In this document: piece by piece, positions 1-19,421 of the stretch
Numbering within the stretch: position 1 is the first letter of the stretch
Layout: each line of letters starts with the position of its first letter
Assembly (NCBI RefSeq): GCF_009834915.1
Contig: NZ_WVHS01000001.1
Span: 930,001 to 994,000, forward strand
Direction: 5' to 3'
DNA: 64,000 bases
DNA from: Hufsiella ginkgonis
GTDB taxonomy: Bacteria > Bacteroidota > Bacteroidia > Sphingobacteriales > Sphingobacteriaceae
Notes under the pieces: generated by a model
What the model saw: only the letters and a program-made list of their open reading frames with translations
Told to the model about the DNA's origin: nothing
Databases searched by the model: none
Translations under genes and position numbers: made by a program

Positions 1-152
1 AAAAAGACAGCAAGCTGTACCTTTGGATCACCGACGATGGGAACCGTATCCCCGTAAAGGCACAGGTAGAGATCCTGCTGGGTTCTGTTACACTGGAGAT
101 CCAGGACGCCACCGGCATGAAATACCCAAGTACCGCAACAGACAAAAAATGA
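1..152 (+). CDS. DUF3108 domain protein, C-terminal fragment
   Basis: The third frame is open from base 3 to a TGA at 150-152 and encodes 49 residues that include LYLWITDDGNRIPVKAQVEI and then LLGSVTLEI. This matches the C-terminus of DUF3108 proteins, exported beta-rich proteins of unknown function in Bacteroidota. The 5' part lies outside the window. Its stop overlaps the start of the next gene (ATGA), so the two are probably translationally coupled. Confidence 0.75.
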   Translation, partial: KDSKLYLWITDDGNRIPVKAQVEILLGSVTLEIQDATGMKYPSTATDKK

Positions 153-709
153 TCGAAGTACAGCATACGCTTGTCCACGAAGACGTGGTTTCCGAAAATT
201 TCGTTTGCAACCTCGATAAATGCAAAGGCGCCTGCTGTGTAGAAGGCGATTCGGGCGCCCCCCTCGAAAAAAGCGAACTACGCGTACTCGAAGAGATCTA
301 CCCGCTGGTAAAGCCCTACATGACGAAAAAAGGAATTGAAACCGTGGAAGAAGCGGGCACCTGGGTAAAAGATTTCGAAGGCGATTATACCACCCCTTGC
401 GTAGATGGCCATAAAGAATGCGCGTACGTAACCTGGGTACACGGCATCAGCAAGTGCGCCATCGAAATCGCGTATGAAGAAGGAAAGGTCGGCTGGAAAA
501 AACCCATCTCCTGCCATTTGTACCCGATCCGGATAACGGCTTATCCAGAATTTGACGTGCTGCACTACGACCGCTGGAACATCTGCAGCCCCGCCTGCTC
601 CTTCGGGAATTCGCTGAAGGTACCCGTTTATAAATTCCTGAAGGAGCCGCTGATCCGCAAATATGGCCAGGATTGGTACAAAGAGCTCGAAGATCACCTG
701 GCCGATTAA
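149..709 (+). CDS. DUF3109 family cysteine-rich protein
   Basis: Encodes 186 aa starting MIEVQHTLVHEDVV. An upstream in-frame extension exists but overlaps the preceding gene in another frame, so the ATG at 149 inside the ATGA overlap is preferred. Conserved cysteine clusters are visible: VCNLDKCKGACCVEGDSGAP near residue 20, TPCVDGHKECAY in the middle, then KCAIE and PISCHLYPIRI. This pattern is typical of DUF3109 (related to YkgJ-type zinc or Fe-S binding proteins). The biochemical function is unknown. No signal peptide is seen, so it is probably cytoplasmic. The four-base overlap with a DUF3108 gene suggests one operon. Confidence 0.85.
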   Translation: MIEVQHTLVHEDVVSENFVCNLDKCKGACCVEGDSGAPLEKSELRVLEEIYPLVKPYMTKKGIETVEEAGTWVKDFEGDYTTPCVDGHKECAYVTWVHGISKCAIEIAYEEGKVGWKKPISCHLYPIRITAYPEFDVLHYDRWNICSPACSFGNSLKVPVYKFLKEPLIRKYGQDWYKELEDHLAD

Positions 710-758
710 GGGGTAGCGGATTCATCGTTTATTAATTGAATTCGTATTTTCGTCGTCA

Positions 759-1622
759 ATGAGCAACATAATCGTATTCGGCGCCGCCGGCCAGTTGGGT
801 CAATGTTTAAAACGGGTATCCGAACAAAGAGGGACAACCCTGGTATTCCCCGCGGAAGCCGAGGCAAATATCCTGGACACAACCTCGCTCGAAGCCGTTT
901 TCGCCAGGTATCAGCCAAAGTTCTGCGTGAATTGCGCAGCCTATACCGCGGTTGATAAGGCAGAGGACGAGGCTGACCTTTCTGCCATGGTAAACGAAAC
1001 CGGTGTGGAGAACATCGCTCGGCTCTGCGCTAAACATGGCACTACGCTTATCCAGATCTCTACAGATTTCGTATTTGAGGGGAACGTGATCAAACTGCTT
1101 ACCGAAGAAGATCCGGCTAACCCCGTAAATGTTTACGGGCTTACCAAGCTTCGCGGGGAGCAGGTGATCGGCAAATACACGTCCACCTACTTCACCATTC
1201 GCACCAGCTGGCTTTATTCCGAATATGGGAACAATTTCGTAAAAACGATGCTTCGCCTGGGGCGCGAAAAGCCTGAGCTTAACATCATCGCCGATCAGGT
1301 AGGCACGCCAACGTACGCCATCGACCTCGCCGGCTGCATCCTGGACGTGATCGCGTCAGGCACTGCCGGATACGGCATCTATCACTATAGTAATGAAGGG
1401 GTTACTTCCTGGTTCGATTTCGCCCGGTCGATATTCGATATTGCAGGCATAACCGTAAAAACAAACCCGGTACCTACCTCCGCCTACGTTACGCGGGCAA
1501 AACGTCCGCAGTTTTCGGTGATGGACAAAACAAAAATTAAAAGTACTTTCGGAATGACGATTCCTTACTGGCGCACCAGCCTCGAGAAATGCGTTGCGAA
1601 TTTAATGGCAAATGAGCTATAA
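759..1622 (+). CDS. rfbD: dTDP-4-dehydrorhamnose reductase
   Basis: Encodes 287 aa of the RmlD family, which reduces dTDP-4-keto-L-rhamnose to dTDP-L-rhamnose with NAD(P)H, the last step of the rhamnose precursor pathway for surface polysaccharide. Visible motifs: Rossmann loop GAAGQLG at residues 8-14, STDFVFEG at 101-108, and the YxxxK catalytic pair Y126/K130 in [11 protein letters not shown]. The length is normal for the family. It is followed after 11 nt by rfbA, so the two form an operon, but rfbB and rfbC are not in this window. The start ATG lies 6 nt after TATTTTCG, a near match to the Bacteroidota -7 element. Confidence 0.93.
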
Positions 1623-1633
1623 AACAGTATAAC

Positions 1634-2527
1634 ATGAAGGGAATTATCCTCGCCGGCGGATCCGGCACCCGCCTCCACCCGCTCACGCTCGCTACCAGTA
1701 AACAAATGATGCCAGTTTACGATAAACCGATGATCTATTACCCGCTGTCGATCCTCATGCTGGCGGGCATCAGGGAAGTACTGATCATTTCTACTCCGCA
1801 TGATTTACCGAACTTCGAAAAATTGCTGGGCGACGGATCACTGTTGGGATGCAAATTCAGCTATGCGGTACAGGAGGTCCCCAATGGACTGGCACAAGCT
1901 TTCGTGATCGGGGCTGATTTTATCGGCACCGACAGCGTGGCGCTGATCCTGGGCGATAATATCTTTTATGGCGACAGCATTTCCAACCTGCTGCAGGATC
2001 TCACCGAGCCGCAAGGTGGTGTAGTGTTCGCTTACCAGGTTTCTGACCCGGAACGCTACGGCGTAGTTGAGTTCGATGAGGATAACAAAGCGATCTCTAT
2101 CGAGGAAAAGCCGTTGGAGCCCAAATCAAATTTCGCTGTTCCAGGCCTGTACTTCTACGACAACAGCGTGGTAGAAATCGCTAAAAACATTCAGCCCTCG
2201 CCGCGCGGCGAATACGAGATCACCGATGTAAATAAGGAATATCTCCGGCAGGGAAAGCTCAAGGTAGGCGTATTAAGCCGTGGAACCGCCTGGCTCGATA
2301 CCGGCACGTTCAATTCGCTGATGCAGGCAGGCCAGTTCGTACAGGTAATTGAAGAGCGCCAGGGGCTTAAGATCGGCTGTATAGAAGAAGTAGCCTATCG
2401 GATGGGGTTCATTACTGCCGAAGAGCTTAAAGCGGTAGCGCTCCCGCTGGTTAAAAGCGGCTACGGGCAATACCTGATCGGGCTGCTGAAAAGGCAAACA
2501 ACAGCCGGTTTAAAGTTGGGAGCTTAA
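1634..2527 (+). CDS. rfbA: Glucose-1-phosphate thymidylyltransferase
   Basis: Encodes 297 aa of the RmlA nucleotidyltransferase family, which makes dTDP-glucose from dTTP and glucose-1-phosphate, the first step of dTDP-rhamnose synthesis. The N-terminus carries the nucleotide-binding signature [11 protein letters not shown] (residues 8-18) and the [17 protein letters not shown] segment; [11 protein letters not shown] lies near residue 107 and [13 protein letters not shown] near 217. It is full length and starts 11 nt after rfbD. Order is rfbD-rfbA, with the other two pathway genes elsewhere. A hairpin-forming repeat overlaps its stop codon. Confidence 0.95.
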
Positions 2528-2550
2528 AGCTAAACTTTCAACTTTAAACC
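2507..2550 (+). repeat. Inverted repeat over the rfbA stop codon
   Basis: GGTTTAAAGTTG (2507-2518) is perfectly complementary to CAACTTTAAACC (2539-2550), with AGCTTAAAGCT in the loop. The left arm is inside the last codons of rfbA. There is no clear poly-T tract, so it may be a weak terminator, an RNA-stabilising hairpin or a dispersed intergenic repeat. Confidence 0.6.
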
Positions 2551-2668
2551 TCTAAACCCTAACCCTTTAACAAGATAGTTACTCACATTTTTTGTTTCCC
2601 CCCTTTTTCTAATTAAGTTTAAAATTTTTTAGTGAGGTAACTTGCTAAAATTTTATGCTTATCCCTTG

Positions 2669-5566
2669 ATGTTACGTGTCGACAGTTCGAAGCCCTGCAA
2701 GTTAGTGTATGCCATTTGTAAGCACGAGTACCTTGGTTTTTTGATCGAACCACATGTGGTTCAGCTAAATCCCGACGGTGATTTCTCGCTTACCTATCAG
2801 CGGCTGTTTTCTAACACCGCCAGGGAATTTCATCGCATGCTCGATGAAAACGACTATAAGCTCATCAAAATACTTGAAGAGACCGAACAGGGACACATCA
2901 TTCGCCGCTTTTATAAAAAGCCCATCAGGCCTTTCGAATTTTTTAGCAAGGTCTTCAATGAGAAGCTGTATGAAGTGATCCGCCCGAAGATCGAGAAAAA
3001 GATCAATGAGGCCATGGTCCTGCTTCGCGACAAAGCACTTTACCTGATGAGTAAAGAAGGGTGGCCCGTGGAACGCGAGGTGCATTTTGCAGCCGAACCG
3101 GCATCGATCCTTTTCCATTTCCGGAGAACGCCCGAGGAAACCCGTTACTTCCCGACCATCAAGTACCAGGGCATGCGTATCGAATTTATGTTTAAAGAAG
3201 CACAGGTGATCAGCAACCTGCCGGCATGGCTGCTGCTGGATGAAGTGCTGTATTACTTCGAAGACGAGGTGGAAGGGAAAAAACTCCAACCATTCCTTAA
3301 TAAACGGTATATCTCTATCCCTAAATCGTCGGAAAAGACTTATTTCGAGAAATTTATTGCACCACTGATCGAGAAACATCATGTGTATGCCGAAGGCTTC
3401 GAGATCAAAACCGAGAAATACCAGGCGTCGCCGGTGTTGAAAGTGCTTTATATACAGGGCGGGACATCGCAACTGCAGCTATATTTCAGGTACGATACGT
3501 ACATTTTCCCTGCCGGGAACGACAAACAGGTTTCCGTGCGTATGGAAAAACGGGGTGATGAGTACGTTTTTCATCGCGTAAAGCGGTCGATGACCTGGGA
3601 AAAAAATAAGATGGATGAGCTTATCGCGATGGGATTAAGGACCTCGGGCACACTGTTCGCCAACCTCGAAGCGGGTCACGATGGCAATACGGAGAGCGAT
3701 GCTTCCTTCAGCGTGATCGATTGGGTGAACGCGCACCACGACGAGCTCTCCGAAAAAGGATTTACCTTCGAACAGCCCGATGGACAGAAGCGTTTCGTGT
3801 TCGGCAACAGCAAGATCGACCTTGAATTCAGGGAGGGGAACGACTGGTTCGACATCCATGCCGTAGTACATTTCGGGCCATACCGCGTGCCTTTTCTCCA
3901 GCTCAAACACCATATCCTGAACCGCATCCGGGAGTTCCAGCTGCCTTCGGGCGAAATTGCAGTGATCCCGGAGCATTGGTTCTCGCAATACGGCAACCTG
4001 ATGAGCTTTAGCGAGGGCGATCAGCACTTAAAGCTAAAGAAACATCATATCGGGCTTATCAGCGATTTTGCCAACAGCGAGCTGGCAGGAATTACCATCG
4101 ACCGCAAATTGCAGCAACTTGCCAACTTTGAAGAGATCGAGGACATCGACGTGCCGCAGCACTTTAACGGCACCCTACGCGCTTACCAGAAAGCGGGCTA
4201 TAACTGGTTTCATTTCCTGAGGACCTACAACTTCGGCGGATGCCTGGCCGATGACATGGGTCTCGGTAAAACCGTGCAAACACTCGCCTTCCTTCAAAAG
4301 ATCAAGGAAGAGAATATTGCGGCGGGCACGGCTAGCACCTCGCTCATCATCATGCCGACTTCGCTTATCTACAACTGGCTGACCGAAGCGCAAAAGTTTG
4401 CTCCCGACCTGAAATTACTGGTACATACCGGCACCTTCAGGAACAAAGACGTAAGCCGGTTTATGGATTATGATATCGTGTTTACCACGTATGGCGTTAC
4501 CCGCGTAGATATCGACCTGATTAGTACGTTATATTTTGGATATGTGATCCTCGACGAAAGTCAGAACATCAAAAACCCGTCATCCAAGGCTTATCACGCA
4601 GTAAAACTGCTTAAGTCGAAACACAAGCTGATCCTGAGCGGCACACCGGTGGAGAACTCCGTAAACGACCTGTGGACACAAATGTCATTTATCAATCCCG
4701 GGTTGCTTGGTAACCAGCATTTCTTCCAGGGAGAGTTCGTTACGCCGATCGAGAAGAAAAAGGACGAGGAAAAAGCGCGCCGCCTGCAGGCCCTCATCAA
4801 GCCTTTTGTGCTGCGGCGCACGAAATCGCAGGTGGCTACCGAGCTGCCTCCTAAAACCGAACAATTGTTCTATTGCCAGATGAGCGAAGAACAAGCCAAG
4901 TATTACGAAGAAGTGAAATCCGAATACCGGAACGAGCTGCTGCGCAGCCTTGAGGACGGCACCTTCAATAAATCGCAGGTACAGGTACTGCAGGGACTGA
5001 TCAGGCTGCGGCAGATCGCCAATCACCCGGGTATGATCGATGAAGGTTACGAAGGCGATTCGGGCAAGTTTGAAAACGTGATACATACCTTGCAAAATGT
5101 GCTTTCGCGCGGTCATAAAGTGCTCGTCTTTTCCCAGTTCGTAAAGCAGCTGAACATTTACCGCAATTATTTCGACCAGGAAAATATTGCGTACGCTTAC
5201 CTCGACGGCTCTACCCGCAACCGCGGCGAGGTGGTAAAGGAGTTCCAGGAAAACGACGGCATCAAGCTGTTCCTGATCTCCATCAAGGCCGGTGGTGTGG
5301 GACTAAACCTTACGGGCGCCGATTACGTGTTCATTCTCGACCCATGGTGGAACCCCGCGGTAGAACAGCAGGCCATTGACCGTACCCATCGCATCGGGCA
5401 AACCCGGAACGTGTTCATCTATAAGTTCATCACCAAAGACAGTGTGGAAGAGAAGATCCTTTCCCTGCAAAACAGGAAACGGGTGGTGGCAGAGTCGCTT
5501 ATCACCACGGAAGAAAGCTTCGTGAAATCGCTATCGGCGGAAGATATCAGGGAGATATTGAATTAG
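2669..5566 (+). CDS. SNF2-family DEAD-like helicase
   Basis: Encodes 965 aa from ATG 2669 (MLRVDSSKP). A TTG at 2642 would add nine residues and cannot be excluded. The N-terminal half (about 520 residues) resembles the SNF2-associated region of Bacteroidota homologues. The ATPase core follows: Walker A in DDMGLGKTVQTLAF near residue 530, Walker B box ILDESQN (DESQ instead of DEAH) near 628, LSGTPVENSVNDLW, then the second lobe with FSQFVKQLNIYR, GGVGLNLTGADYV and DRTHRIGQT. The family uses ATP to translocate on double-stranded DNA, in RNA polymerase recycling, repair or chromosome remodelling; the exact role here is unknown. It converges with the next gene with a one-base gap. Confidence 0.92.
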   Translation: MLRVDSSKPCKLVYAICKHEYLGFLIEPHVVQLNPDGDFSLTYQRLFSNTAREFHRMLDENDYKLIKILEETEQGHIIRRFYKKPIRPFEFFSKVFNEKLYEVIRPKIEKKINEAMVLLRDKALYLMSKEGWPVEREVHFAAEPASILFHFRRTPEETRYFPTIKYQGMRIEFMFKEAQVISNLPAWLLLDEVLYYFEDEVEGKKLQPFLNKRYISIPKSSEKTYFEKFIAPLIEKHHVYAEGFEIKTEKYQASPVLKVLYIQGGTSQLQLYFRYDTYIFPAGNDKQVSVRMEKRGDEYVFHRVKRSMTWEKNKMDELIAMGLRTSGTLFANLEAGHDGNTESDASFSVIDWVNAHHDELSEKGFTFEQPDGQKRFVFGNSKIDLEFREGNDWFDIHAVVHFGPYRVPFLQLKHHILNRIREFQLPSGEIAVIPEHWFSQYGNLMSFSEGDQHLKLKKHHIGLISDFANSELAGITIDRKLQQLANFEEIEDIDVPQHFNGTLRAYQKAGYNWFHFLRTYNFGGCLADDMGLGKTVQTLAFLQKIKEENIAAGTASTSLIIMPTSLIYNWLTEAQKFAPDLKLLVHTGTFRNKDVSRFMDYDIVFTTYGVTRVDIDLISTLYFGYVILDESQNIKNPSSKAYHAVKLLKSKHKLILSGTPVENSVNDLWTQMSFINPGLLGNQHFFQGEFVTPIEKKKDEEKARRLQALIKPFVLRRTKSQVATELPPKTEQLFYCQMSEEQAKYYEEVKSEYRNELLRSLEDGTFNKSQVQVLQGLIRLRQIANHPGMIDEGYEGDSGKFENVIHTLQNVLSRGHKVLVFSQFVKQLNIYRNYFDQENIAYAYLDGSTRNRGEVVKEFQENDGIKLFLISIKAGGVGLNLTGADYVFILDPWWNPAVEQQAIDRTHRIGQTRNVFIYKFITKDSVEEKILSLQNRKRVVAESLITTEESFVKSLSAEDIREILN

Positions 5567-5567
5567 G

Positions 5568-6527
5568 TTATTCCTTCGGCAGGCTTAACACCTCTTCCAC
5601 CCAACCTTTTCCCCACTCCTCCATTTCTTTTTGCGTCCATAGCTCCGGGTAAAAAATGCGTTTCCGGAAGCGTGGCGGCAGGTATTTCTGCCAGTTGGTG
5701 CCTCCCGTGGCCGGGATTTCATGGGGCTGCCGGTGCAGGTAACGCACCGCCGATTTATAGTGTGCCAGCGGCCAGTTCACGTTTACAAACTGGTCAAGCT
5801 TGCGCAGCTCCTCTTCAAGCGCGGTGGTATCGTCGCCCGATTGCCTCAGTATGCTAAACAATGCACGGAAGTTCAGCCTTTCGCACGATTTCGCTAACCC
5901 GATCAGCGTGGCCGCATATTTATGCTCGAACTGTTTTAACGTAAGCGTTTTATTCCCGGTAGCAAGCTCGGTAGCGCCCGACTTCCAGTAGATGAATTCG
6001 AACTGCTCCTCAATCGTGGCATCAGCCATTTCTGCCCGCTTGTCCTGCGCCACCAGGCGGATAAAATCGGTAGCGTAGATCTCGATCATGCGGTATTGCC
6101 CGGATTGGAACCCGCTCGCCGGCAGCAGCGACATCCGGAATTTGAGGAATTGCTCCTTATCCATACCGTCTACCATGATATCAAAGGAGCTTACAAGCGC
6201 CCTGAAATAGGAGTTGATCCGCTTCAGCCTGGCCACGAAGAAATTCATATCAACCGGCCGCTGTGCTACCAGTTGCTTACATTCATGCAATACCAGTTTA
6301 AAATACAGCTCCGTAACCTGGTGATACATAATAAAGATCTCCTCGTCGGGGAAGGGCGTCTTCGGGCTCTGCAGGCTTAGCAGGGTATCCAGGTGAATAT
6401 AGTCCCAATACGTAAGGTAATCTGCATACAGCAAGCCATCCAGGTACGATACCATGTCCTGCCCCATTGCCCCATACTTTTCCTGGAGCTGCTTTAGCTT
6501 TGCCTCAATTTCGGGGGTGATCTCCAT
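5568..6527 (-). CDS. Tryptophan 2,3-dioxygenase family protein
   Basis: Encodes 319 aa with the TDO fold. Family landmarks: YLTYWDYIHLDTLLSLQSPK (residues 37-56), DEEIFIMYHQVTELYFKLVL (61-80), SGFQSGQYRMIE (138-149, Arg146 matching the carboxylate-binding Arg), WPLAHYKS with His256 matching the proximal haem ligand, and TGG at 274-276 matching the amino-group loop. TDO opens the indole ring of tryptophan to give N-formylkynurenine. The His that normally precedes DE in the distal pocket is Pro60 here, and GTGGSSG reads ATGGTNW, so this is a divergent branch and the substrate is not certain. No other kynurenine-pathway genes are nearby. It lies 5 nt after crcB in an apparent operon. Confidence 0.82.
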   Translation of the reverse strand: MEITPEIEAKLKQLQEKYGAMGQDMVSYLDGLLYADYLTYWDYIHLDTLLSLQSPKTPFPDEEIFIMYHQVTELYFKLVLHECKQLVAQRPVDMNFFVARLKRINSYFRALVSSFDIMVDGMDKEQFLKFRMSLLPASGFQSGQYRMIEIYATDFIRLVAQDKRAEMADATIEEQFEFIYWKSGATELATGNKTLTLKQFEHKYAATLIGLAKSCERLNFRALFSILRQSGDDTTALEEELRKLDQFVNVNWPLAHYKSAVRYLHRQPHEIPATGGTNWQKYLPPRFRKRIFYPELWTQKEMEEWGKGWVEEVLSLPKE

Positions 6528-6532
6528 AAGTT

Positions 6533-6904
6533 TCAGAATAATTTCGCTACTAACATGCCCAGGTAAAATGCGGCTACGCTCAGCACGAAATTTAACACGA
6601 TGTTTGCTAAGGCCATCCCGGTCTTCCCCGACGAGAACAGTCCTACCGTTTCGTAAGTAAATGCCGAGTAAGTGCTAAATCCGCCGCAAAAACCGGTGAG
6701 CAATAGTAATTTAGCCGAATCGCTCATGGCCAGTTTTTGCGCAGAAAGGCACACCACGATCCCAAAAACAAAACAGCTCAGGAAATTAGAGGTCAGCGTG
6801 GCCAGCGGAAATACCGGCTTCCATTGCAGGTACGCCTTCCCCACCAGGTAACGGGCGACGCTTCCGGTCCCGCCACCGAAAAAGACGATAATGATGTTTT
6901 TCAT
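6533..6904 (-). CDS. crcB: Fluoride-specific ion channel FluC/CrcB
   Basis: Encodes 123 aa with four hydrophobic segments. CrcB/FluC motifs are present: GGGTGSVARY at residues 10-19, TLTSNFLSCFVFG (the family TN-G segment), and GFCGGFSTYSAF (family GFCGGxTTFSTF). FluC proteins form dual-topology dimers in the inner membrane and export fluoride. It starts its own unit and reads into the TDO-family gene 5 nt downstream. I looked for an upstream fluoride riboswitch in 6905-7019 and did not recognise one. Confidence 0.92.
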   Translation of the reverse strand: MKNIIIVFFGGGTGSVARYLVGKAYLQWKPVFPLATLTSNFLSCFVFGIVVCLSAQKLAMSDSAKLLLLTGFCGGFSTYSAFTYETVGLFSSGKTGMALANIVLNFVLSVAAFYLGMLVAKLF

Positions 6905-7019
6905 TTCTGGCTGGTTATAAGCTAATAGTAATAGCTGTCAGCCGCTTGTAATTGCGACTATGCTCCGGCCAAAAATAAGCACCCGCTAAACGTCATACAA
7001 GAGCTGATCGCTGCCGGCG

Positions 7020-8312
7020 TTAATAAAGCACCCTAAACTTAATCGTATGCTCGATCTTTTTCAGTTCCTTTAACACCTGCTTGTCGTACTCCGCGCTTAC
7101 ATCGGTAATGGCATAGCCGATCTTCGGGTTCGTCATCAGGAACTGGGCGACAATATTTATGTCGTGGTGTGCAAAGATCTGGTTAATGCGCGCCATAATT
7201 CCCGGCACGTTCTGGTGAATATGGATGAGGCGATGCGCGTGATCAACTTTCGGCAGCTGCAGGTTCGGAAAGTTGCCGCTCATATAGCTGTCACCTTTGT
7301 TGATAAAACCCGCCATGCGCACCGGGATAAAACGCGCATTCCTAGGGTTTGATTTCGGATCGTCGAACAGCACGATACCCATCGCCGTACATAATTCATG
7401 CGAAACCCTGTTACGGCTATTACCCAGGTAACCAATCGTTTTGAGCTTTACCGCGCGTGCGAGCTGCCCGTCGGGGACCCGCTCGTCGCTCGCCAGCAGG
7501 AGCATGCCCACATCGGCCACATATTTTTCCTCGAAAGAGGTTTTATGCCGGATGGAAAACCCGTCTTTTTTTAACACCTGGATGGCTTCATCCGGCACAT
7601 TCCCGATAATGAGGCACAAGATCCGGTTCTTGGGGTATGAAATGGCGCGTGGCAGGTTATTCACATACAGGAACTCGTCGAAGCTTGGCGTTACATGGTC
7701 GGCCTTCTCCGCCACCGCTTTGCGCTCGATGTTCTCGGTATACGCAAAAAACTTCCTGATCAGCCCCGACTCTTTCAACTGGAAATCCGAATGCCCGTCG
7801 CCGATGCCATAGATATCGCCGTCCAGGTTCATGCTGCGCAGAAGCTTCACCTTTCCGCCTTCATTCGACAACGGGTTTTCGGCATCATAGCCTATGATCT
7901 TCCCATCCTCGTCGAAAAGGAAGGTATTTGCATAAATATTTTCCTTTTTAATATGGTAAGGCAGCACCACCGGGGTGATAAACTCCTTGAATCCCCCGGA
8001 AACGATCAGCACGTCGTCTGCATGTTTTTCAAAGAAAGTTTTATTGCGCGAGAACGAGGACGATACCTTTTTCTTAAGCCTGCTTACCAGTTGTTTTAGA
8101 TGGTCGCGGTTGGCTTCCAGCAGCTGCACTCTTTTAGTTAAGCTTTCGCGGAAGGAAAGTTTCCCTTCCATGGCGGCATTGGTGAGGTCTTCTATCTGTA
8201 CATAGATCGCTTCCCGGTCCGGGTGTTTTCTTAAGGAAATACGGGCCAGCTCGTCCAGCGCTTCTACCTGGGTAAACGTGCTGTCGAAATCGATGATAAA
8301 GGTTTGCTTCAA
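7020..8312 (-). CDS. Phosphoserine phosphatase fused to SerA remnant and ACT domain
   Basis: Encodes 430 aa with a TTG start (protein MKQTFIIDFDST; no in-frame ATG upstream). Residues 1-215 are a HAD-IB phosphatase with intact motifs: DFDST (8-12), VSGG (104-107) and GDGHSD (171-176), consistent with hydrolysis of phosphoserine in serine synthesis. Residues 228-335 resemble the split substrate-binding domain of phosphoglycerate dehydrogenase SerA (ILCLIIGNVPDEAIQVL, AMGIVLFDDPKSNPRN), and 336-430 match the SerA end and ACT domain (NFPNLQLP, RLIHIHQNVPGI, C-terminal KFRVLY). The SerA NAD-binding Rossmann domain (about 185 residues) is missing and key SerA residues are altered, so it cannot be a dehydrogenase. 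Probably a serine-regulated phosphatase. It lies 33 nt after the epimerase gene. Confidence 0.85.
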   Translation of the reverse strand: MKQTFIIDFDSTFTQVEALDELARISLRKHPDREAIYVQIEDLTNAAMEGKLSFRESLTKRVQLLEANRDHLKQLVSRLKKKVSSSFSRNKTFFEKHADDVLIVSGGFKEFITPVVLPYHIKKENIYANTFLFDEDGKIIGYDAENPLSNEGGKVKLLRSMNLDGDIYGIGDGHSDFQLKESGLIRKFFAYTENIERKAVAEKADHVTPSFDEFLYVNNLPRAISYPKNRILCLIIGNVPDEAIQVLKKDGFSIRHKTSFEEKYVADVGMLLLASDERVPDGQLARAVKLKTIGYLGNSRNRVSHELCTAMGIVLFDDPKSNPRNARFIPVRMAGFINKGDSYMSGNFPNLQLPKVDHAHRLIHIHQNVPGIMARINQIFAHHDINIVAQFLMTNPKIGYAITDVSAEYDKQVLKELKKIEHTIKFRVLY

Positions 8313-8345
8313 GGTATGTAATTGTAGGTGTAAAAATAGGCCGCG

Positions 8346-9266
8346 TTATACCAGTTCAATACAAGTTTCGTTAACCACTTCGCTAACCGGCCGGAAAACA
8401 ATGCCCGGAAGTGCTTCATTGATCTTTTCGGTAGAATACAAATGTTGTTTGGTAAGGCTGTGAACCACGCTCCTGTTCACCAATGCCAGTTTCAGCATCC
8501 ATGGCCTTACCAGGATGGAAGGCGCGCGGTTGCCGAAAATGGCCGCTGCCTGGGTAAAAAGTTCTTTAATAGAAAGTGTGCCTGCATTTAAGATAAAGCG
8601 CTGCCCGGAAATGTCGCTGTTCATTAAGGCGATCATAACACGCGCTACGTCAGCTACGGCAATTAATCCGATACTTCCTCCTGTATAAAAGGAGGTTCCC
8701 CGGCGTGCGGTTTCAAAGATCCTGCCGCTTCCCTTATCGCCGGCAGCTCTCCCGATGATCACCGCCGGATTCACGATCACCGCCGTAAGGCCTTCGGCGA
8801 TACCGCGCCACACTTCCATCTCTCCTTCGTACTTGGAGATCGAGTAACCGTGCTGCAGCCCGGTATATTCCAACAAGTCTTTTTCGGTAACGGCCTGTCC
8901 TGGTTTGCCTTCGCCGATGGCGGCCACCGAGCTCACATGTACCAGCTTGCCGATATTATTTTCGAGGCAAAGATTTACCACGTTCGCCGTTCCTTCCGCA
9001 TTTACCTGGTGCAATCTTTTCCGGTCGGCGGACTTAAATGAGATCATGCCCGCGCAGTGGTAAACCTGCCGCACGCCTTCAAAGGCTGCTTCGAGTGCAA
9101 AATGGTCGAGGATATCCGCCGTCACCCATTCTACCGGTTTTCCCTGTAAAATCTTCGGAATCGCTGAACCTTCGCGCTTTATGGCACGAACCCGGGCACC
9201 ATTCTCAAGCAGCTGATACACAAGCTCCGAACCCAGGAAACCGGTGGCGCCGGTAATTAATATCAT
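8346..9266 (-). CDS. NAD-dependent epimerase/dehydratase family protein
   Basis: Encodes 306 aa of the extended short-chain dehydrogenase superfamily, closest in look to dihydroflavonol reductase or 3-beta-HSD-like proteins. The N-terminal nucleotide-binding loop is GATGFLG (residues 6-12). VSSVAAIGEG (111-120) precedes the catalytic YSISK (Y141, K145), and NPAVIIGRA follows. The substrate cannot be told from sequence. It is the first gene of a leftward pair with the phosphatase-ACT fusion, 33 nt apart. TACTTTTG at 9288-9295 on the same strand is a perfect TAnnTTTG element about 20 nt upstream of the start. Confidence 0.88.
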   Translation of the reverse strand: MILITGATGFLGSELVYQLLENGARVRAIKREGSAIPKILQGKPVEWVTADILDHFALEAAFEGVRQVYHCAGMISFKSADRKRLHQVNAEGTANVVNLCLENNIGKLVHVSSVAAIGEGKPGQAVTEKDLLEYTGLQHGYSISKYEGEMEVWRGIAEGLTAVIVNPAVIIGRAAGDKGSGRIFETARRGTSFYTGGSIGLIAVADVARVMIALMNSDISGQRFILNAGTLSIKELFTQAAAIFGNRAPSILVRPWMLKLALVNRSVVHSLTKQHLYSTEKINEALPGIVFRPVSEVVNETCIELV

Positions 9267-9335
9267 CCTAATTTTTTAAAATGCCTTCAAAAGTAATGGA
9301 TTAAAGTGGATATTTGAACACGTTTACCGATGGCC

Positions 9336-10517
9336 ATGTCCCTGATAGATTTTTTTTCTCCCGTAGATCTGCATAAGATCATGCCCCAGGCAGGGTTCTT
9401 TTCCAGCCAGATGGGGAGCCGGACATACATGTTTGTCGACACGTTTCCCGACCTCGACCATGCAATGGTGGATATCGCCATTTTTGGCGTGGCCGACGAT
9501 CGCAACACCATTGGCAACTCCGGTTGTGCACTCGCCCCCGATCATATCCGCGAACGTTTCTACAGCCTGTACGAAGGACCGTACCTTTCGCGCATCGTCG
9601 ACCTCGGGAACATCCGCGCCGGCAATACCGTGGCCGATACGTATTTTGCGGTAAAAACAGTGGTGGCCGAGCTCGTTAAAATGGACATCCTCCCCATAAT
9701 ACTCGGCGGCGGCCAGGATATTACCTATGCCCAGTATGCGGCGTACGAGTCGCTCGAAACAAAAGCCGATCTCGTAGTGATCGACTCTCATTTCGATCTC
9801 GACGATACTACCGAAACGTCGGTGGAAACTACCTCCGCCTCATACCTCAACAAGATCTTTTTACATGAGCCGAATTTCCTGTTCAATTACAGCAACATCG
9901 GCTACCAGACTTATTTTGTGAGCCAGGACAGCCTGCGCTTCATGGAAAAACTGTATTTCGATGTGCACCGGCTGGGAGATTTTACCGGTAAGATAAGCGC
10001 CACCGAGCCAGTTATCCGCAATGCGAGCCTGGTGAGTTTCGATATTTCGGCCATTCGTTCTGCCGATGCCTGCGGGAATGCGAACGCCACCCCCAACGGA
10101 TTTTACGGCGAAGATGCCTGCCAGATCTGCCGCTACGCGGGAATGAGCGATAAGCTCACCTCTATCGGCTTCTACGAGTTCAATCCCGCTTTTGATCAAA
10201 ATGGCCAGACCGCTATTCTCCTTTCTCAAATGCTCTGGTATTTTATCGACGGGTTTTACAACCGGAAGAAAGATACCCCCCTCACGCCGAAATCGCAATA
10301 CATGATCTACCGGGCTGCTCTCAAAGAAGACTCGCACGAGCTGGTGTTCGTAAAAAGCAAAAAAACCGACCGCTGGTGGCTGCAGGTGCCGTATCCCGCA
10401 GGGACTTCACAGAATGAACGGTTCCACATCGTGCCTTGTACCTACGAGGACTACCAGACCGCCGTATCAGGCGAAATGCCTGATCTTTGGTGGCGAACAT
10501 ACCAGAAGCTGGTTTAA
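9336..10517 (+). CDS. Arginase-fold (ureohydrolase) protein with altered metal site
   Basis: Encodes 393 aa from ATG 9336 (MSLIDFFSP); an ATG two codons upstream (9330) is also possible. The ureohydrolase fold is recognisable: ILGGGQD near residues 122-128, IDSHFDLDD near 149-157, SFDISAI near 234-240 and FYEFNP near 279. In arginase, agmatinase and formimidoylglutamase these motifs are GGGHD, DAHxD and SxDxD and hold two Mn ions. Here the first His is Gln and the last Asp is Ser, so one ligand of each metal is changed. Such proteins are often labelled formimidoylglutamase in Bacteroidota, but the altered site makes enzymatic activity doubtful. No histidine-degradation genes are adjacent. Confidence 0.75.
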   Translation: MSLIDFFSPVDLHKIMPQAGFFSSQMGSRTYMFVDTFPDLDHAMVDIAIFGVADDRNTIGNSGCALAPDHIRERFYSLYEGPYLSRIVDLGNIRAGNTVADTYFAVKTVVAELVKMDILPIILGGGQDITYAQYAAYESLETKADLVVIDSHFDLDDTTETSVETTSASYLNKIFLHEPNFLFNYSNIGYQTYFVSQDSLRFMEKLYFDVHRLGDFTGKISATEPVIRNASLVSFDISAIRSADACGNANATPNGFYGEDACQICRYAGMSDKLTSIGFYEFNPAFDQNGQTAILLSQMLWYFIDGFYNRKKDTPLTPKSQYMIYRAALKEDSHELVFVKSKKTDRWWLQVPYPAGTSQNERFHIVPCTYEDYQTAVSGEMPDLWWRTYQKLV

Positions 10518-10605
10518 GGATACTTTCGGCATATGCCGATCCCCCTTTTAACAATATTTTAACAATTCTACCCTTCATACTACTGATTTTCAAGGAACAG
10601 AACAC

Positions 10606-10613
10606 TATATTTG
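10606..10613 (+). promoter_or_regulatory. TAnnTTTG promoter element of the thioredoxin gene
   Basis: TATATTTG is a perfect Bacteroidota -7 element 31 nt before the start codon at 10645. No good TTTG -33 element is seen at the usual distance. The leader that would follow contains an imperfect hairpin (TATTTGGTTT / AAACCCCAAATA, 10608-10633). Confidence 0.5.
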
Positions 10614-10644
10614 GTTTATTGAAACCCCAAATACTTAATATATT

Positions 10645-11793
10645 ATGAAAAAATTAATTTTAACAGCAGCACTGGCTCTCCCCGTTATGGCCATGGCGCA
10701 GGAAACCTTTACCGTTAGCGGTAAGGTAGGCACCAAAAACGCACCGGTAAAGGCATTCATCTCTTACCGGGTTGGAGCAGATGCTGTTTCTGACTCTGTT
10801 GAAATAGTAAACGGCGCCTATAAGTTTACCGGTACCGCTCCAAAATACACGTCGGCATTTGTTACGGTGAAATACCCGCCTGTTCCGGGAGCTGACCCGA
10901 AAAAACGTACGCCGGCGGATGCGTTCCAGGTATACCTCGATAAAACGATCATCCTCAACTCTGCAGATTCCATTAAAAAATCGACCGTTAGCGGCTCCAA
11001 AGTAAACGAGGAAAATTTCGCGTTTAAAGCGCTGCTCGCTCCTGCAAATGCGGGCATGGCCGCGCTTAACGCGGAATATACCAGCAAAACGCCTGAAGAA
11101 CGCAAAAACCAGGATTTCATCAAGTCGCTGAATGACCGCGCCGGTGTTCTTAACAAACAGACAGCAGACATCAATAAATCCTATTGGGAGTCACATACCA
11201 ATACCTATATCGGGCTTGTGGCTTTCCGTTCAGCTATCGGCTATAACATTAATGATGAAGTGGTGCAGCCGCAGTTCGATAAATTCACCGCCGATATAAA
11301 GGCGACCGAGCTGGGCAAGAACATCAGCAACATGATCGAGGCCGCCCGCAAAACCAAAATAGGCGCCATGGCCATGAATTTCACGCAAAACGACGTGAAC
11401 GATAAACCGGTTAGCCTCTCTGATTTTAAGGGCAAATATGTGTTGGTTGATTTCTGGGCTTCATGGTGCGGCCCGTGCCGTGCAGAAAACCCGAACGTAG
11501 TAGCTACTTATAACGAGTTTAAAGATAAAAATTTCACCGTATTGGGCGTTTCGCTGGATCAGCCGGGAAAGAAAGAAGAATGGCTAAAAGCAATAAAAGA
11601 CGACAACCTGAACTGGACACAGGTTTCTGACCTCCAGTACTGGAATAACGCCGTCGCCAAACAGTGGGGCATTAATGCCATCCCGGCCAGCTTCCTGATC
11701 GATCCTGCAGGCAAGATCATCGGTAAAAACCTCCGCGGCGACGAGCTGAAGAAAAAACTGGCCGAGGTACTGGCTGCACAGGCGCCGAAATAG
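10645..11793 (+). CDS. TlpA-like thioredoxin with DUF4369 N-terminus
   Basis: Encodes 382 aa with a Sec signal peptide (MKKLILTAALALPVMAMAQE). Residues about 22-120 look like the DUF4369 beta-domain, followed by a helical linker, then a TlpA/ResA-like thioredoxin domain with DFWASWCGPCRAEN near residue 270 (CGPC redox pair), GVSLDQPGKKEEW and the cis-Pro loop AIPASFLIDPAG. Such proteins act in the periplasm as membrane-facing disulfide reductases, for example in cytochrome c maturation; the partner here is not known. The gene is monocistronic: a perfect -7 element precedes it and a strong terminator follows. Confidence 0.9.
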   Translation: MKKLILTAALALPVMAMAQETFTVSGKVGTKNAPVKAFISYRVGADAVSDSVEIVNGAYKFTGTAPKYTSAFVTVKYPPVPGADPKKRTPADAFQVYLDKTIILNSADSIKKSTVSGSKVNEENFAFKALLAPANAGMAALNAEYTSKTPEERKNQDFIKSLNDRAGVLNKQTADINKSYWESHTNTYIGLVAFRSAIGYNINDEVVQPQFDKFTADIKATELGKNISNMIEAARKTKIGAMAMNFTQNDVNDKPVSLSDFKGKYVLVDFWASWCGPCRAENPNVVATYNEFKDKNFTVLGVSLDQPGKKEEWLKAIKDDNLNWTQVSDLQYWNNAVAKQWGINAIPASFLIDPAGKIIGKNLRGDELKKKLAEVLAAQAPK

Positions 11794-11843
11794 TTTTGAG
11801 TGATCAGTGCTCAGTTTTAGCGCTCAAAATAATAGACTGGTAT

Positions 11844-11884
11844 AAAAAGAAAGAGGCGGGAATAACACCCGCCTCTTTCTTTTT
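11844..11884 (+). terminator. Rho-independent terminator, possibly bidirectional
   Basis: AAAAAGAAAGAGGCGGG (11844-11860) pairs perfectly with CCCGCCTCTTTCTTTTT (11868-11884) around a 7-nt loop. The T-rich right arm ends the thioredoxin gene; the A-rich left arm would serve purD from the other side. Confidence 0.9.
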
Positions 11885-11956
11885 AACCTGATATCACTAT
11901 TATCTTATACTACACACCCCTCAAGCCGATCATTGGTTACCGAAACTGGTCACTCT

Positions 11957-13231
11957 TTACAACAAATCAAACCCGATATCTGTCCTGAAATAACGCGCGT
12001 CAAAATAGATCCTTCCCGCATCGGCGGTAGCTTTCTGAACGGCGTCGAACAGGGTATCCTGTAAAGAGGTGATGGCCAGCACACGCCCGCCGGAAGTTTT
12101 TACTTCCCCGTTCTCCAGGGTAGCGCCCGCGTAAAATGCATTCGAGTGGCGGAGGTTTTCGACCCCGGTTATTACCTTTCCTTTCAGGTATTCGCCCGGG
12201 TACCCCCCGGCCACGATCATGATGGTAACAGCTGTTTTGGGAGAGATCACCAGGTCTACCTGGTCGAGCGTACCTCCTGCAACCGCCTTAAACAGTTCCG
12301 CAAGGTCGTTCACAATACGGGGCAGTACGCTTTCGGTTTCCGGATCGCCCATGCGCACGTTGTACTCGATCACGTAGGGTTCGCCGTTCACGTTCATCAG
12401 CCCGATAAAGATAAATCCCTTGTAAGGGATATTTTCTTTTGCCAGGCCCTGCATGGTCGGGATCACGATCTTACGCTCTACTTTCTCCAGGAACTCCGGT
12501 CCGGCAAACGGGACCGGCGAGATAGCGCCCATCCCGCCGGTGTTAAGGCCCGTATCGCCTTCGCCGATGCGCTTGTAGTCTTTTGCGGCAGGCAATATCT
12601 TATAATTCTTCCCATCGGTAAGCACGAACACAGATAGCTCGATCCCTTTCAGGAACTCTTCTATCACAACCGTTTTACCGGCTTCCCCGAACTTGGCATC
12701 CTGGAGCATGGCACGCAGCTCAATTTTCGCGTCTTCCGTTGTTTCGCAGATCAGCACGCCCTTGCCGGCCGCCAGCCCATCCGCCTTTAATACTACCGGC
12801 AGCGGATGCCGGTCGAGGTAGGCAAGACCATCCTGGAGGGTACTTTCCGTAAAAGATGCCGAAGCGGCGGTGGGGATCCCGTGGCGTACCATAAACCGCT
12901 TGGAGTAATCTTTACTGCCTTCCAGCTGCGCGGCTTCTTTCTGCGGACCGATCACCGGGATATGGCGCAGCTCCGGCTGGTCGAGGAAAAAATCGTGCAC
13001 GCCTTTTACCAGCGGCTCTTCCGGGCCAACCACCACCATGTTTACCCGGTTATCGAGGGCAAACCTGCCAAGTGCAATGAAATCTGTTGGGCTGATAGCC
13101 ACGTTCGTCCCAAAAACAGCCGTCCCGGCATTACCCGGAGCGATAAACAAATTTGTTACCTGGTCACTTTGCGCGAGTTTCCAGGCGAAGGCGCTCTCCC
13201 TGCCGCCAGAACCGAGAATGAGAATGTTCAT
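11957..13231 (-). CDS. purD: Phosphoribosylamine--glycine ligase
   Basis: Encodes 424 aa (GAR synthetase), which joins glycine to phosphoribosylamine with ATP in purine synthesis. The start is set at MNILILGSGGRESAFAWKL; a longer in-frame extension of 16 residues is unlikely because the promoter element lies inside it. Motifs: GSGGRE at 7-12, VVGPEEPLVKG, ATP-grasp segments LKADGLAAGKGVLI and GMGAISPVP, and GDPETESVLPR. The length is typical. A TATCTTTG element sits only 4 nt upstream of the ATG, suggesting a leaderless or near-leaderless mRNA. Confidence 0.96.
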   Translation of the reverse strand: MNILILGSGGRESAFAWKLAQSDQVTNLFIAPGNAGTAVFGTNVAISPTDFIALGRFALDNRVNMVVVGPEEPLVKGVHDFFLDQPELRHIPVIGPQKEAAQLEGSKDYSKRFMVRHGIPTAASASFTESTLQDGLAYLDRHPLPVVLKADGLAAGKGVLICETTEDAKIELRAMLQDAKFGEAGKTVVIEEFLKGIELSVFVLTDGKNYKILPAAKDYKRIGEGDTGLNTGGMGAISPVPFAGPEFLEKVERKIVIPTMQGLAKENIPYKGFIFIGLMNVNGEPYVIEYNVRMGDPETESVLPRIVNDLAELFKAVAGGTLDQVDLVISPKTAVTIMIVAGGYPGEYLKGKVITGVENLRHSNAFYAGATLENGEVKTSGGRVLAITSLQDTLFDAVQKATADAGRIYFDARYFRTDIGFDLL

Positions 13232-13235
13232 GCGG

Positions 13236-13243
13236 CAAAGATA
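13236..13243 (-). promoter_or_regulatory. TAnnTTTG element 4 nt before purD
   Basis: On the minus strand TATCTTTG is followed by CCGC and the purD ATG. This is a perfect -7 element at a distance that puts the expected transcription start at about the A of ATG. A good -33 TTTG is not seen at 19-21 nt. Confidence 0.5.
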
Positions 13244-13378
13244 GACTTTGCACGAGAACGATTCCTGCTTCTTCGGCAAAAAACGCTAAATTAGCGCCCC
13301 GCACGACCCTGTCAATTTGACTTGTATAGGTTGGTGGCTTAGTTGTTGATGATTAGTGATTTTATTTAACAAAATTCC

Positions 13379-16300
13379 ATGTTAGGTTTCTTAAGCAAGA
13401 TATTCGGTAGCAAATCGGAACGCGATATCAAACATATTCTGCCCCTGGTAGAAAAAACGAAGGAAGTATACGCCAGGCTTTCCGCTCTTTCTAACGATGA
13501 GCTGCGTGATAAAACGCTCGACTTTAAGGCCCGCATCGCGACCGCGCTTGCAGATATCGACCAGGAGATAGCCGGTCTGAAGGCTAAGGCCGAATCTGAT
13601 GAGCTGGATATCCATGAAAAAACCGGCATCTTCGAAGAGGTGGACAGGCTGGGAAAAGACCGCGACAAACAATTGGAAGTGGTGCTTATGGAGATCCTCC
13701 CCGAGGCCTTTGCCGTGGTAAAGGAAACTGCCCGCCGCTTCACCGAAAATAAAACCATCGAAGTTACCGCCTCCCCTTTCGACCGGGAGCTCGCGGCGAA
13801 AAAGGCCAACGTGGTGATCTCCGGCGATAAAGCCATCCACCACAATACCTGGAAAGCAGCCGGCGTAGACGTTACCTGGAACATGGTGCACTACGATGTA
13901 CAGCTGATCGGCGGGGTAGTGCTTCACGAAGGCAAGATCTCTGAAATGGCGACCGGTGAAGGTAAAACGCTCGTGGGTACCTTGCCCGCTTACTTAAACG
14001 CGCTGGCCGGACAAGGCGTACACATCGTTACCGTGAACGACTACCTGGCACGCCGCGACTCTGAATGGAACGGTCCCCTGTTCGAGTTCCACGGACTGAG
14101 CGTAGATTGCATCGATAAGCACGAGCCAAACTCCGAGGCACGCCGCAATGCCTACCTCGCAGACATCACTTTTGGCACGAATAACGAATTTGGCTTCGAC
14201 TACCTGCGTGACAATATGACACTCAGCCCGGAAAGCCTCGTACAACGGAAGCTCCATTTTGCCATGGTAGATGAGGTGGACTCGGTGCTGATCGACGATG
14301 CACGTACCCCGCTCATCATCTCCGGACCTATCCCGCGCGGCGACGAGCACGAATTTTACGACCTTAAACCGCGTATCGAACGTTTAGTAAATGCACAGAA
14401 AAACTATGTGCAGGGCTCGCTTAATAATGCGAAAAAACTGATCACTGATCAAAAGCCAGGCGTAGACGACGGCGGCCTCGCCCTCCTCCGCGCTTACCGC
14501 GGCCTGCCGAAAGCGAAAACGCTCATCAAGTTCCTGAGCGAAACCGGCATGCGCCAGCTGCTCCTTAAAACAGAGAACCACTACATGCAGGACCAGAGCA
14601 AAGAAATGCCGAAAGTAGATTCGGAGCTTTTCTTTGTGATCGACGAAAAAAACAACCAGGTAGAGCTTACCGAAAAAGGGATCGAGCTGATCACCTCTTC
14701 GGGCGAAGATCCGCATTTCTTCGTGATGCCCGATGTGGGCACCGAAATCGCGGAACTGGAAAAATCAGGCTTGTCTACCGAAGAAAAAGTGGCAAAAAAA
14801 GATGCCCTGATGCGCGATTTCTCGATAAAATCTGAACGTATTCACTCGGTAAACCAATTGCTGAAAGCATATACCTTATTCGAAAAAGATGTGGAATACA
14901 TCATCGATGAGGGCAAAATCAAGATCGTAGATGAGCAAACAGGTCGTATTATGGACGGTCGTCGTTATTCTGATGGTTTACATCAGGCGATCGAGGCCAA
15001 GGAAAATGTGAAAGTAGAAGACGCTACCCAGACTTACGCCACCATTACGCTGCAGAACTATTTCCGTATGTACCACAAACTTTGCGGTATGACGGGTACG
15101 GCAGTAACCGAAGCCGGCGAGCTCTGGCAGATCTATAAACTGGACGTGGTAGAGATTCCTACCAACGTAAAAACCCAGCGTAAAGACCAGGAAGACATGG
15201 TGTACCGCACCGTGCGCGAAAAATATAATGCGGTAGCCGATGAGATCACCAAATTGACCCAGGCAGGAAGACCGGTATTGGTAGGTACTACCTCCGTAGA
15301 GATCTCCGAGTTATTGAGCCGCATGCTTAAGCTTCGCGGCATTAAACACAACGTACTGAATGCCAAGCTTCACCAGAAGGAAGCGGATATTGTGGCCGAG
15401 GCCGGACAGGCCGGAACCGTAACCATTGCCACCAACATGGCCGGTCGTGGTACCGATATTAAGCTGGGCCCGAACGTAAAAGAAGCCGGTGGTTTGGCCA
15501 TCGTAGGTACCGAGCGCCACGAATCGCGCCGCGTTGACCGCCAGCTGCGCGGTCGTGCCGGGCGACAGGGCGACCCGGGATCTTCCCAGTTCTTCGTATC
15601 GCTGGAAGATAACCTGATGCGTTTATTCGGATCTGAAAGGATCGCGAACATCATGGTGCGTATGGGCATCGAAGAAGGTGAAGTGATCCAGCATTCGATG
15701 ATCACCAAATCGATCGAGCGCGCGCAGAAAAAAGTAGAAGAAAACAACTTCGGTATCCGCAAGCGCCTGCTGGAATATGATGACGTGATGAACTCGCAAC
15801 GGTCCGTGATCTATTCGCGGCGTAAAAACGCGCTGTTTGGCGATCGCCTGGCCGTTGATATCAACAACACTATTTTCGACGTTACCGAAGACATCGTAAC
15901 CGAATACAAAGAGCAGTCGAATTACGAAGGCTTTGTGCTCGAGATGATCCGGATCTTCTCGGTAGACCCTGAGATCAGGGAAGACGAATTTGCAGGTACT
16001 CAGCTGTCAAAGCTGATCGACCGTACATTCGGGTCGGTAACTGAATTCTACGCGAGAAAATCCGACGGCATTGCCAAGCAAACCTTCCCGGTACTGCAAG
16101 GCGTGATGCGCGAGCGTGGTGATTACGTAGAAAACATCATCGTGCCATTTACTGATGGGATCCGCGGCATACAGGCTAATACCGACCTGAAAAAGGCGGT
16201 AGAAACACAAGGCCGCGAAGTGTTTAAAACCTTTGAGAAAACCGTAGTGCTGGCCCTGATCGATGAGGCCTGGAAAGAACATCTCCGCGAGATGGACGAG

Positions 16301-16687
16301 TTAAAGCAATCCGTTCAAAACGCGGTTTACGAGCAAAAAGATCCGCTGATCGTATACAAGATCGAAGCTTTTGAATTATTCAAACAGCTGCTTGCTACCG
16401 TAAATAAAGATGTGGTAAGTTTCCTCTTTAAGGGAGGGATCCCGGCACAGCAGGCAGAAGACGTAAGAGAAGCACGTCCGCAGCCGCGCCAGGACCTCAG
16501 CAAACTGAAGGTCTCGAAGCCCCAATTGGCTGAACCGTCTGCTCCCGGCCTTCCGCCGATGGAAGATACCCGCGAGCTTCAGAAAACGCAGCCGATCCGG
16601 GTAGAAAATAAAGTGGGCAGAAATGACCTTTGTCCGTGCGGAAGCGGCAAAAAATATAAAAACTGTCATGGAGCAGGCGCGGAATAA
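13379..16687 (+). CDS. secA: Preprotein translocase ATPase SecA
   Basis: Encodes 1102 aa. SecA drives unfolded proteins through SecYEG using ATP. Visible: N-terminal [18 protein letters not shown], Walker A region [16 protein letters not shown] near residue 190, [19 protein letters not shown] near 300, [25 protein letters not shown], the second ATPase lobe [33 protein letters not shown], and the C-terminal zinc motif [14 protein letters not shown]. It is longer than the roughly 900-residue E. coli protein, partly from an insertion around residues 320-470, as is usual in Bacteroidota. It is monocistronic in this context and divergent from purD. Confidence 0.97.
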
Positions 16688-16735
16688 TCGTACAAACACC
16701 TGATTTGTAATTATCCTGCAACAAAAGTTTTAACT

Positions 16736-16753
16736 TATAGGATATTACCTATA
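16736..16753 (+). promoter_or_regulatory. TATAGG-N6-CCTATA palindrome before response regulator
   Basis: TATAGG (16736-16741) and CCTATA (16748-16753) form a perfect 6-bp inverted repeat around ATATTA, 52 nt before the response-regulator ATG. It could be an operator or chance AT-rich symmetry. Confidence 0.3.
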
Positions 16754-16804
16754 TTAGCACGGTTTAGATGAGTGAAGGGGCGTCTGTTTCCAACCACATC
16801 CAGT

Positions 16805-17167: not shown

Positions 17168-17197
17168 TTTAACTCCCGGATTTCTGTCCTGCAATCT

Positions 17198-17223
17198 GCG
17201 CAAATCGGTAACTTGCGCTTTTT
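17198..17223 (+). terminator. Rho-independent terminator after response regulator
   Basis: GCGCAA (17198-17203) pairs with TTGCGC (17213-17218) across a 9-nt loop and is followed directly by five T (17219-17223). It lies between the response regulator and the M20 peptidase start. Confidence 0.6.
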
Positions 17224-17237
17224 AACCCCTGCCATTT

Positions 17238-19348: not shown

Positions 19349-19390
19349 AAAATAGGGAATAGACAAATCTGTTCTCCATTTTCTATTCTC
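19341..19390 (+). repeat. Inverted repeat over a stop codon, before dnaG
   Basis: GAGAATAGAAAAT (19341-19353) is perfectly complementary to ATTTTCTATTCTC (19378-19390). The left arm spans the stop codon of the preceding gene. The same words recur nearby (GGGAATAG, AATTCTC). It may act as a terminator-like hairpin or be a member of a dispersed repeat class. Confidence 0.6.
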
Positions 19391-19409
19391 AATTCTCTAT
19401 ATAACCAAC

Positions 19410-19417: not shown

Positions 19418-19421
19418 TACC

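Follow-up and report, generated by a model that had tools for sequence, protein, structure and literature searches.

The type II PGDH of E. coli, SerA, is described in (PMC6300728) as having Arg60, Lys141', Arg240, and His292 in its active site, and as binding L-serine through residues 344, 346, and 364. Serine binding is said in the same source to rotate the unit formed by the substrate-binding domain (SBD) and the ACT domain against the NAD domain. Type III PGDH, as presented there, consists of the SBD and the NAD domain and has no ACT domain. A different arrangement is found in SerB2 of Mycobacterium tuberculosis (ACT-ACT-HAD), in which two ACT domains precede the phosphatase; according to the sections of (PMC10564941) dealing with this enzyme, serine inhibits it partially and mainly competitively, with a Ki of ~22 µM. 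A bifunctional enzyme that joins the first two steps of serine synthesis, rather than SerA and SerB, appears in part of (PMC2705460). Our full-text search of open-licence papers turned up none dealing with a HAD-SerA fusion or with the shortened form described here, and the GapMind work may already assign such a gene as SerB in a supplement.

The window analyzed here is a stretch of 64,000 nucleotides from Hufsiella ginkgonis, a member of the Sphingobacteriaceae (contig NZ_WVHS01000001.1, positions 930,001–994,000 of the forward strand; positions below are counted from the first letter of the window). It encodes a 430-amino acid protein, T430, which is composed of a HAD-IB phosphatase domain, an SBD without the NAD domain, and a SerA-type ACT domain. 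The coding sequence starts with a TTG codon (8310–8312) and is present in one copy in its own genome (5.2 Mb, 25 contigs, 99.99% complete). T430 and its homologues are referred to as short forms, and the full-length HAD-SerA fusions of Bacteroidota as long forms. The features of the locus are as follows.

7020..8312, minus strand: coding sequence of T430, a HAD phosphatase joined to a NAD-less SerA (list of open reading frames)
7653..8312, minus strand: HAD-IB phosphatase domain, residues 1–220 (Pfam HAD and TIGR01488 above cut-off; model matches 3kd3 and human PSP)
8283..8291, minus strand: HAD motif I, Asp8-Phe9-Asp10 (Asp8 and Asp10 in 107/107 short and 18/18 long forms)
7632..7652, minus strand: linker, residues 221–227, of a sequence common to the full-length fusions (alignment; low model confidence)
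7338..7631, minus strand: first part of the SerA SBD, residues 228–325 (PF00389, alignment, and model)
7491..7493, minus strand: Ala274, aligned with Arg60 of E. coli SerA, the substrate-binding Arg being gone (alignment; Arg in 0/107)
7337..7338, minus strand: junction at the absent NAD-binding domain, at about residue 325/326 (22 versus 214–215 residues from E. coli column 105 to column 320)
7293..7337, minus strand: closing helix of the SBD after the lost domain, residues 326–340 (model helix 325–339; alignment)
7023..7238, minus strand: ACT domain, residues 359–430 (Pfam ACT_AHAS_ss at 362–425; model)
7155..7217, minus strand: span containing His366, Asn368, and Asn386, equivalent to E. 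coli SerA 344, 346, and 364, which bind L-serine there (His/Asn/Asn in 107/107 short and 18/18 long forms)

Profile searches identified both ends of the protein. Pfam HAD (residues 6–179, E 7.1e-9) and ACT_AHAS_ss (residues 362–425, E 3.9e-14) matched above cut-off, and the SerA-type SBD model 2-Hacid_dh (residues 234–325, E 1.4e-4, 22 bits) narrowly missed its cut-off (24.6). None of the five Pfam matches of T430 is to PF02826, the NAD domain. The NCBIfam model TIGR01488 places the protein in the HAD-IB group (64 bits, cut-off 45). T430 matches the NCBIfam SerA model NF008759 twice (E 5.9e-44), the stronger stretch covering the last 104 model positions, but the score of 150.4 bits is far below the full-enzyme cut-off of 404. 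The SerB equivalog model TIGR00338 gave 65.5 bits and its cut-off of 144.15 was missed, a shortfall that says little because only seven of 14 control genomes reach that cut-off. Full-enzyme profile cut-offs overlook both the SerA and the SerB parts of this protein.

The three-dimensional model agrees with this domain composition. An AlphaFold model of T430 was built on an alignment (A1) of 43 homologues, taken from a set of 80 loci, and has a mean pLDDT of 82.6 and a pTM of 0.55, with low-confidence stretches at residues 193–196 and 221–227. The best solved relatives are the HAD phosphoserine phosphatase-like protein 3kd3 for the front of T430 (Z 20.5, 3.2 Å, 211 residues) and SerA chains for the end; the front likewise superimposes on human PSP (6hyy; Z 20.4, 2.6 Å, 203 residues). 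Residues 227–430 superimpose on residues 7–410 of E. coli SerA (1sc6_D; Z 26.7, 1.9 Å, 202 residues, 29% identity), leaving out the NAD domain alone. The original prediction, made from the DNA letters and their reading frames, held that the two ends of SerA are joined here with the whole Rossmann domain missing, and the superposition bears this out. In the model, the SBD and ACT domain retain their mutual SerA arrangement, with the chain closing over the absent NAD domain. T430 thus has the SBD and ACT folds of SerA by structural superposition, but is no SerA by the defining feature of that enzyme, as it is without the NAD-binding domain that bears the catalytic Arg and His. The placement of the HAD domain relative to the SerA parts is arbitrary in the model, as reflected in its pTM; TM-scores from Foldseek against whole SerA chains are low for this reason (0.22–0.26 for most top rows), and a second aligner settled the match. 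Single-sequence searches of the middle region against PDB sequences gave only weak stretch scores (8.9 and 13.2 bits). Despite these scores, a chance likeness of the middle region to SerA was ruled out by the alignment to the long fusions along with the model.

The extent of the deletion was defined by aligning 107 distinct short forms (window included, drawn from 122 loci after removal of exact repeats and re-fetched copies of the window) with 18 full-length fusions (L130–L147) and E. coli SerA. T430 follows the SBD to about residue 325, jumps the NAD domain, and re-enters at the closing helix. The interval bounded by E. coli columns 105 and 320 is 22 residues long in 100 of the 107 short forms (21 in three and 18 in four), compared with 215 in E. 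coli SerA and 215 (11/18) or 214 (7/18) in long forms. About 193 residues are therefore missing from T430, and the length is equal in 100 of the 107 distinct homologues. The columns of Lys141, Arg240, His292, and Glu269, the last of which we take to be an active-site residue, are missing in 107/107 short forms. Long forms (18/18 examined) keep the NAD domain and all four of these residues together with Arg60, and should therefore have both activities. The Arg60 column holds Arg in 18/18 long forms as opposed to none of the 107 short forms, in keeping with the earlier proposal that the SerA substrate residues (RSRT, IGTNQ) are changed. The two forms have the same order of HAD, linker, SBD, and ACT domain, common linker residues, and the same serine-site residues.

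The phosphatase domain is intact, as had been predicted for the open reading frame at 7020–8312. All 107 short forms keep Asp8, Asp10, Glu17, Arg61, Ser105, Gly106, Lys154, Asp172, Ser175, and Asp176, and 18/18 long forms keep Asp8, Asp10, Glu17, Arg61, Ser105, Lys154, Asp172, and Asp176. Asp8 and Asp10 of motif I are presumably the nucleophile and general acid. Glu17 and Arg61 align with Glu29 and Arg65 of human PSP, and their equivalents in PSPs are, we assume, substrate-binding residues. The two forms differ at the motif II residue following Ser (residue 106 of T430), which is Gly in 107/107 short forms and in only two of 18 long forms, the others having Asn (8), Cys (4), Ser (3), or Ala (1). 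This difference may bear on the efficiency of the phosphatase.

Mean identity in the HAD domain is 0.78 among short forms, 0.54 among long forms, and 0.52 between the two. The corresponding values are 0.60, 0.68, and 0.28 for the first part of the SBD, and 0.74, 0.67, and 0.61 for the ACT domain. Because between-form identity is lowest in the SBD, this domain altered most, relative to the phosphatase, after the loss. Median dN/dS values are 0.011 for HAD, 0.040 for SBD, and 0.010 for ACT, as calculated from 46 non-independent pairs picked by synonymous divergence, with dS taken over all domains.

Long forms of about 630 residues had been expected to occur in Bacteroidota, and they do, with open frames of 627–687 residues. 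The shared linker residues and a joint tree indicate that the HAD, linker, and SerA parts of T430 descend in common with the HAD-SerA fusions. The tree was calculated from 52 rows (30 short forms, 18 long forms, and four split pairs as outgroup), with the NAD columns excluded. Short forms constitute one clade (bootstrap/SH-aLRT 100/100), which adjoins two long forms of family f47 (94/92) within other long forms (97/90). The tree favors an origin of the short form from within the long forms but does not prove it, as an AU test did not reject the grouping of all long forms in one clade (p 0.166; p 0.158 without the longest outgroup row). Under either tree, the absence of the NAD domain is the derived state, because the outgroup and the long forms have it. 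In one outgroup genome (L162, G506:C92:13200-17500), the frames of a HAD protein (235 amino acids) and an ACT-bearing SerA (412 amino acids) overlap on one strand, which is possibly the pre-fusion state.

Within the phylum, 395 genomes were sampled. Among the matches listed, the short form occurs in 12 genomes (11 of its own family and one of f2) and the long form in 25 (families f4, f8, f9, f10, and f47); at least six genomes have a related stand-alone HAD domain (G371, G429, G418, G426, G484, and G506). All nine f4 genomes with a long form also have a relative of the ACT-less SerA of H. ginkgonis (see below), at 45–60% identity, and the 16 genomes of f8, f9, f10, and f47 with a long form have no match above 39% to that SerA. 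A redundant SerA beside an intact fusion, as in f4, is a state that would allow harmless loss of the dehydrogenase half.

The short form is nearly universal in the Sphingobacteriaceae. Homologues of T430 occur in 141 of 151 sampled family genomes and 22 of 25 genera (132/138 among high-quality genomes), and, with the window itself excluded, are 63–85% identical to T430. The order sample has the short form in 61/61. None of the homologue matches in the 141 family genomes has an internal stop, and 140 cover nearly the full length, with the exception (G084) beginning at residue 94; this ruled out gene decay or an assembly artefact. Loci in named genomes (80 kept of 454) come from Pedobacter, Mucilaginibacter, Sphingobacterium, Daejeonella, Solitalea, Pelobium, Niabella, and others. 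In 49 of 80 homologues a start codon seemed to be lacking at the expected place, but a wider look gave ordinary starts in 81/81, the window included. Most of these are ATG two codons upstream; in 17/81, the window among them, the first start codon met upstream is a TTG. The carriage in 141/151 genomes, the invariant residues, and the median dN/dS of 0.01–0.04 argue that the gene is not decaying; T430 is an old single-copy protein under strong purifying selection. Of the earlier proposal that T430 derives from a fusion whose dehydrogenase decayed, descent from the fusion is upheld by the alignment and tree, and decay does not extend to the gene as it stands today.

Outside the family, the short form occurs in six of 195 genomes of the Chitinophagaceae (f2), a family that includes Niabella-like carriers; the six (L186–L190 and L129) fall in two genera. 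Its patchy presence there and identity of up to 72% to the window suggest that it reached this family by lateral transfer. The same 195 genomes have one stand-alone HAD and one long form, the latter (G607:C22:13191-14177) containing one in-frame TAA.

The ten family genomes in which T430 was not found belong to genera g11 (six), g24 (two), g25 (one), and g19 (one). serA is kept in nine of these and serC in nine, and a TIGR00338 search of the ten found nothing above cut-off. The six g11 genomes (G010, G032, G048, G059, G069, and G079) are all small and keep serA and serC with no TIGR00338 match. Either another phosphatase is in use in these genomes, or the gene is dispensable there, or it was missed in incomplete genomes. 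The idea that T430 is the only phosphoserine phosphatase is weakened, because T430-less genomes keep serA and serC.

A separate serA, which was to be sought in the genome, was found. Four proteins of the H. ginkgonis genome strongly match PF02826, and one of them (at L005) is a 322-amino acid SerA located between a DUF1015-like gene and serC (names by inspection). It has no ACT match by Pfam, and its make-up is that of type III PGDH; this make-up and that of the short form complement each other (NAD without ACT as opposed to ACT without NAD). Close matches to this SerA occur in 144 of the 151 family genomes (E 1e-60). None was found in the six f2 carriers, their best match having 35–38% identity and an open frame of 389–424 amino acids; in one of them (G412), a 384-amino acid SerA adjoins serC and has a C-terminal extension that weakly matches ACT (17.3 bits, cut-off 27). 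The argument that feedback moved because SerA has no sensor does not cover these six, as they have no close ACT-less SerA. Around T430 itself, no adjoining serine genes were seen, and genomic context gives no functional support. An epimerase match occurs in the flanks of 74/80 loci and is the immediate upstream neighbor, in the same orientation, in only 27/80. An Rfam search of window positions 1–20000 found no family above its gathering score.

Taken together, we favor T430 being a phosphoserine phosphatase controlled by serine via the regulatory half inherited from SerA, with a probability of about 0.65. The long form of ~630 residues would have arisen in an ancestor by fusion of a serB-like gene to serA. 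In the line leading to the Sphingobacteriaceae, the NAD domain would have been deleted once, ending dehydrogenase activity and leaving an SBD still able to fold and an intact ACT domain. Going by its residues and lineage, the HAD domain very probably takes phosphoserine as its substrate, cleavage of which is the last step of serine synthesis. The ligand of the ACT domain is in good likelihood serine, judging from the invariant serine-site residues. T430 has the SBD and ACT folds of E. coli SerA, their mutual placement, and the serine-binding His/Asn/Asn, the differences being the missing NAD domain, the lost substrate residues, and the phosphatase in front. As in E. coli SerA, two subunits would pair through their ACT domains, with L-serine at that interface. 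As the SBD-ACT unit is tied to a phosphatase here, the movement described for E. coli SerA could act on the HAD domain instead, which is the step of the mechanism to which we attach the least weight. Such a serine-driven shift would probably lower phosphatase activity, so that the effect of serine would be inhibition. The separate, ACT-less SerA would make the first intermediate, and serine feedback would fall on the last step rather than the first. In its working, T430 as predicted resembles SerB2, which likewise joins a HAD phosphoserine phosphatase to ACT domains at which serine acts, as described in the relevant sections of (PMC10564941). Its single ACT domain lies behind the phosphatase and is joined to it via the SBD, and because domain order and attachment differ in this way, regulation of T430, if real, arose separately from that of SerB2.

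It is less probable, though the strongest of the other explanations, that the phosphatase is real and the SerA remnant is merely a structural or dimerizing tail from which serine regulation has been lost. The added regulatory domains of PGDH are reported in (PMC6300728) to be not always functional. The hinge of E. coli SerA, Gly336-Gly337, is not retained in short forms (Gly in 18/107 and 5/107), and the SBD is strongly diverged (28% identity to long forms versus 60% among short forms). Against a mere tail stand the invariance of the serine-site trio in 107/107 and the constraint on the ACT domain, whose dN/dS (0.010) is about that of the phosphatase (0.011).

T430 is unlikely to regulate the separate ACT-less SerA as its partner, or to dock on it, lending its serine sensor as a subunit. 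Both proteins are indeed encoded in 135 of the 151 family genomes, and Pfam gives that SerA no ACT domain. However, no close relative of this SerA accompanies the short form in the six Chitinophagaceae, nor a close match to it in six family genomes, although four of these are <90% complete and one is 92% complete. The NAD-NAD contact between SerA subunits would also be unable to form, as the NAD domain is gone.

That the HAD domain acts on another small phosphorylated amine, such as histidinol phosphate, is very improbable: annotated phosphoserine phosphatases of four bacteria are proposed in part of (PMC5764234) to be histidinol-phosphate phosphatases, and T430 misses the SerB equivalog cut-off, but the ancestor's fusion with SerA and the retention of an ACT domain of the serine type point to serine synthesis, T430 is the best TIGR00338 match in its own genome (68.7 bits, next match 22.1 bits) with no better serB candidate there, and Table 1 of GapMind has no serine gap for its Pedobacter strain, the main text naming no gene (PMC7311316).

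Within the preferred reading of a serine-controlled phosphatase, a new role for the SBD was considered because this domain is under selection (dN/dS 0.040, 60% identity among short forms). Its altered, non-SerA pocket could conceivably accept another metabolite besides serine, such as a phosphate ester of the pathway, and with a serine-binding ACT domain would then make a two-input gate on the last serine step. This is a doubtful extension; if true, its control logic would be one found in neither SerA nor SerB2.

The short form is a natural case in which a catalytic core was lost by internal domain deletion and the allosteric half probably persists as the controller of a fused enzyme. If serine inhibits the phosphatase, feedback would have moved from the first committed to the last step of serine synthesis across a bacterial family. 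The carriers are a family of environmental bacteria, in which T430 probably serves as the phosphatase for the last serine step, its tail probably letting serine turn it down.
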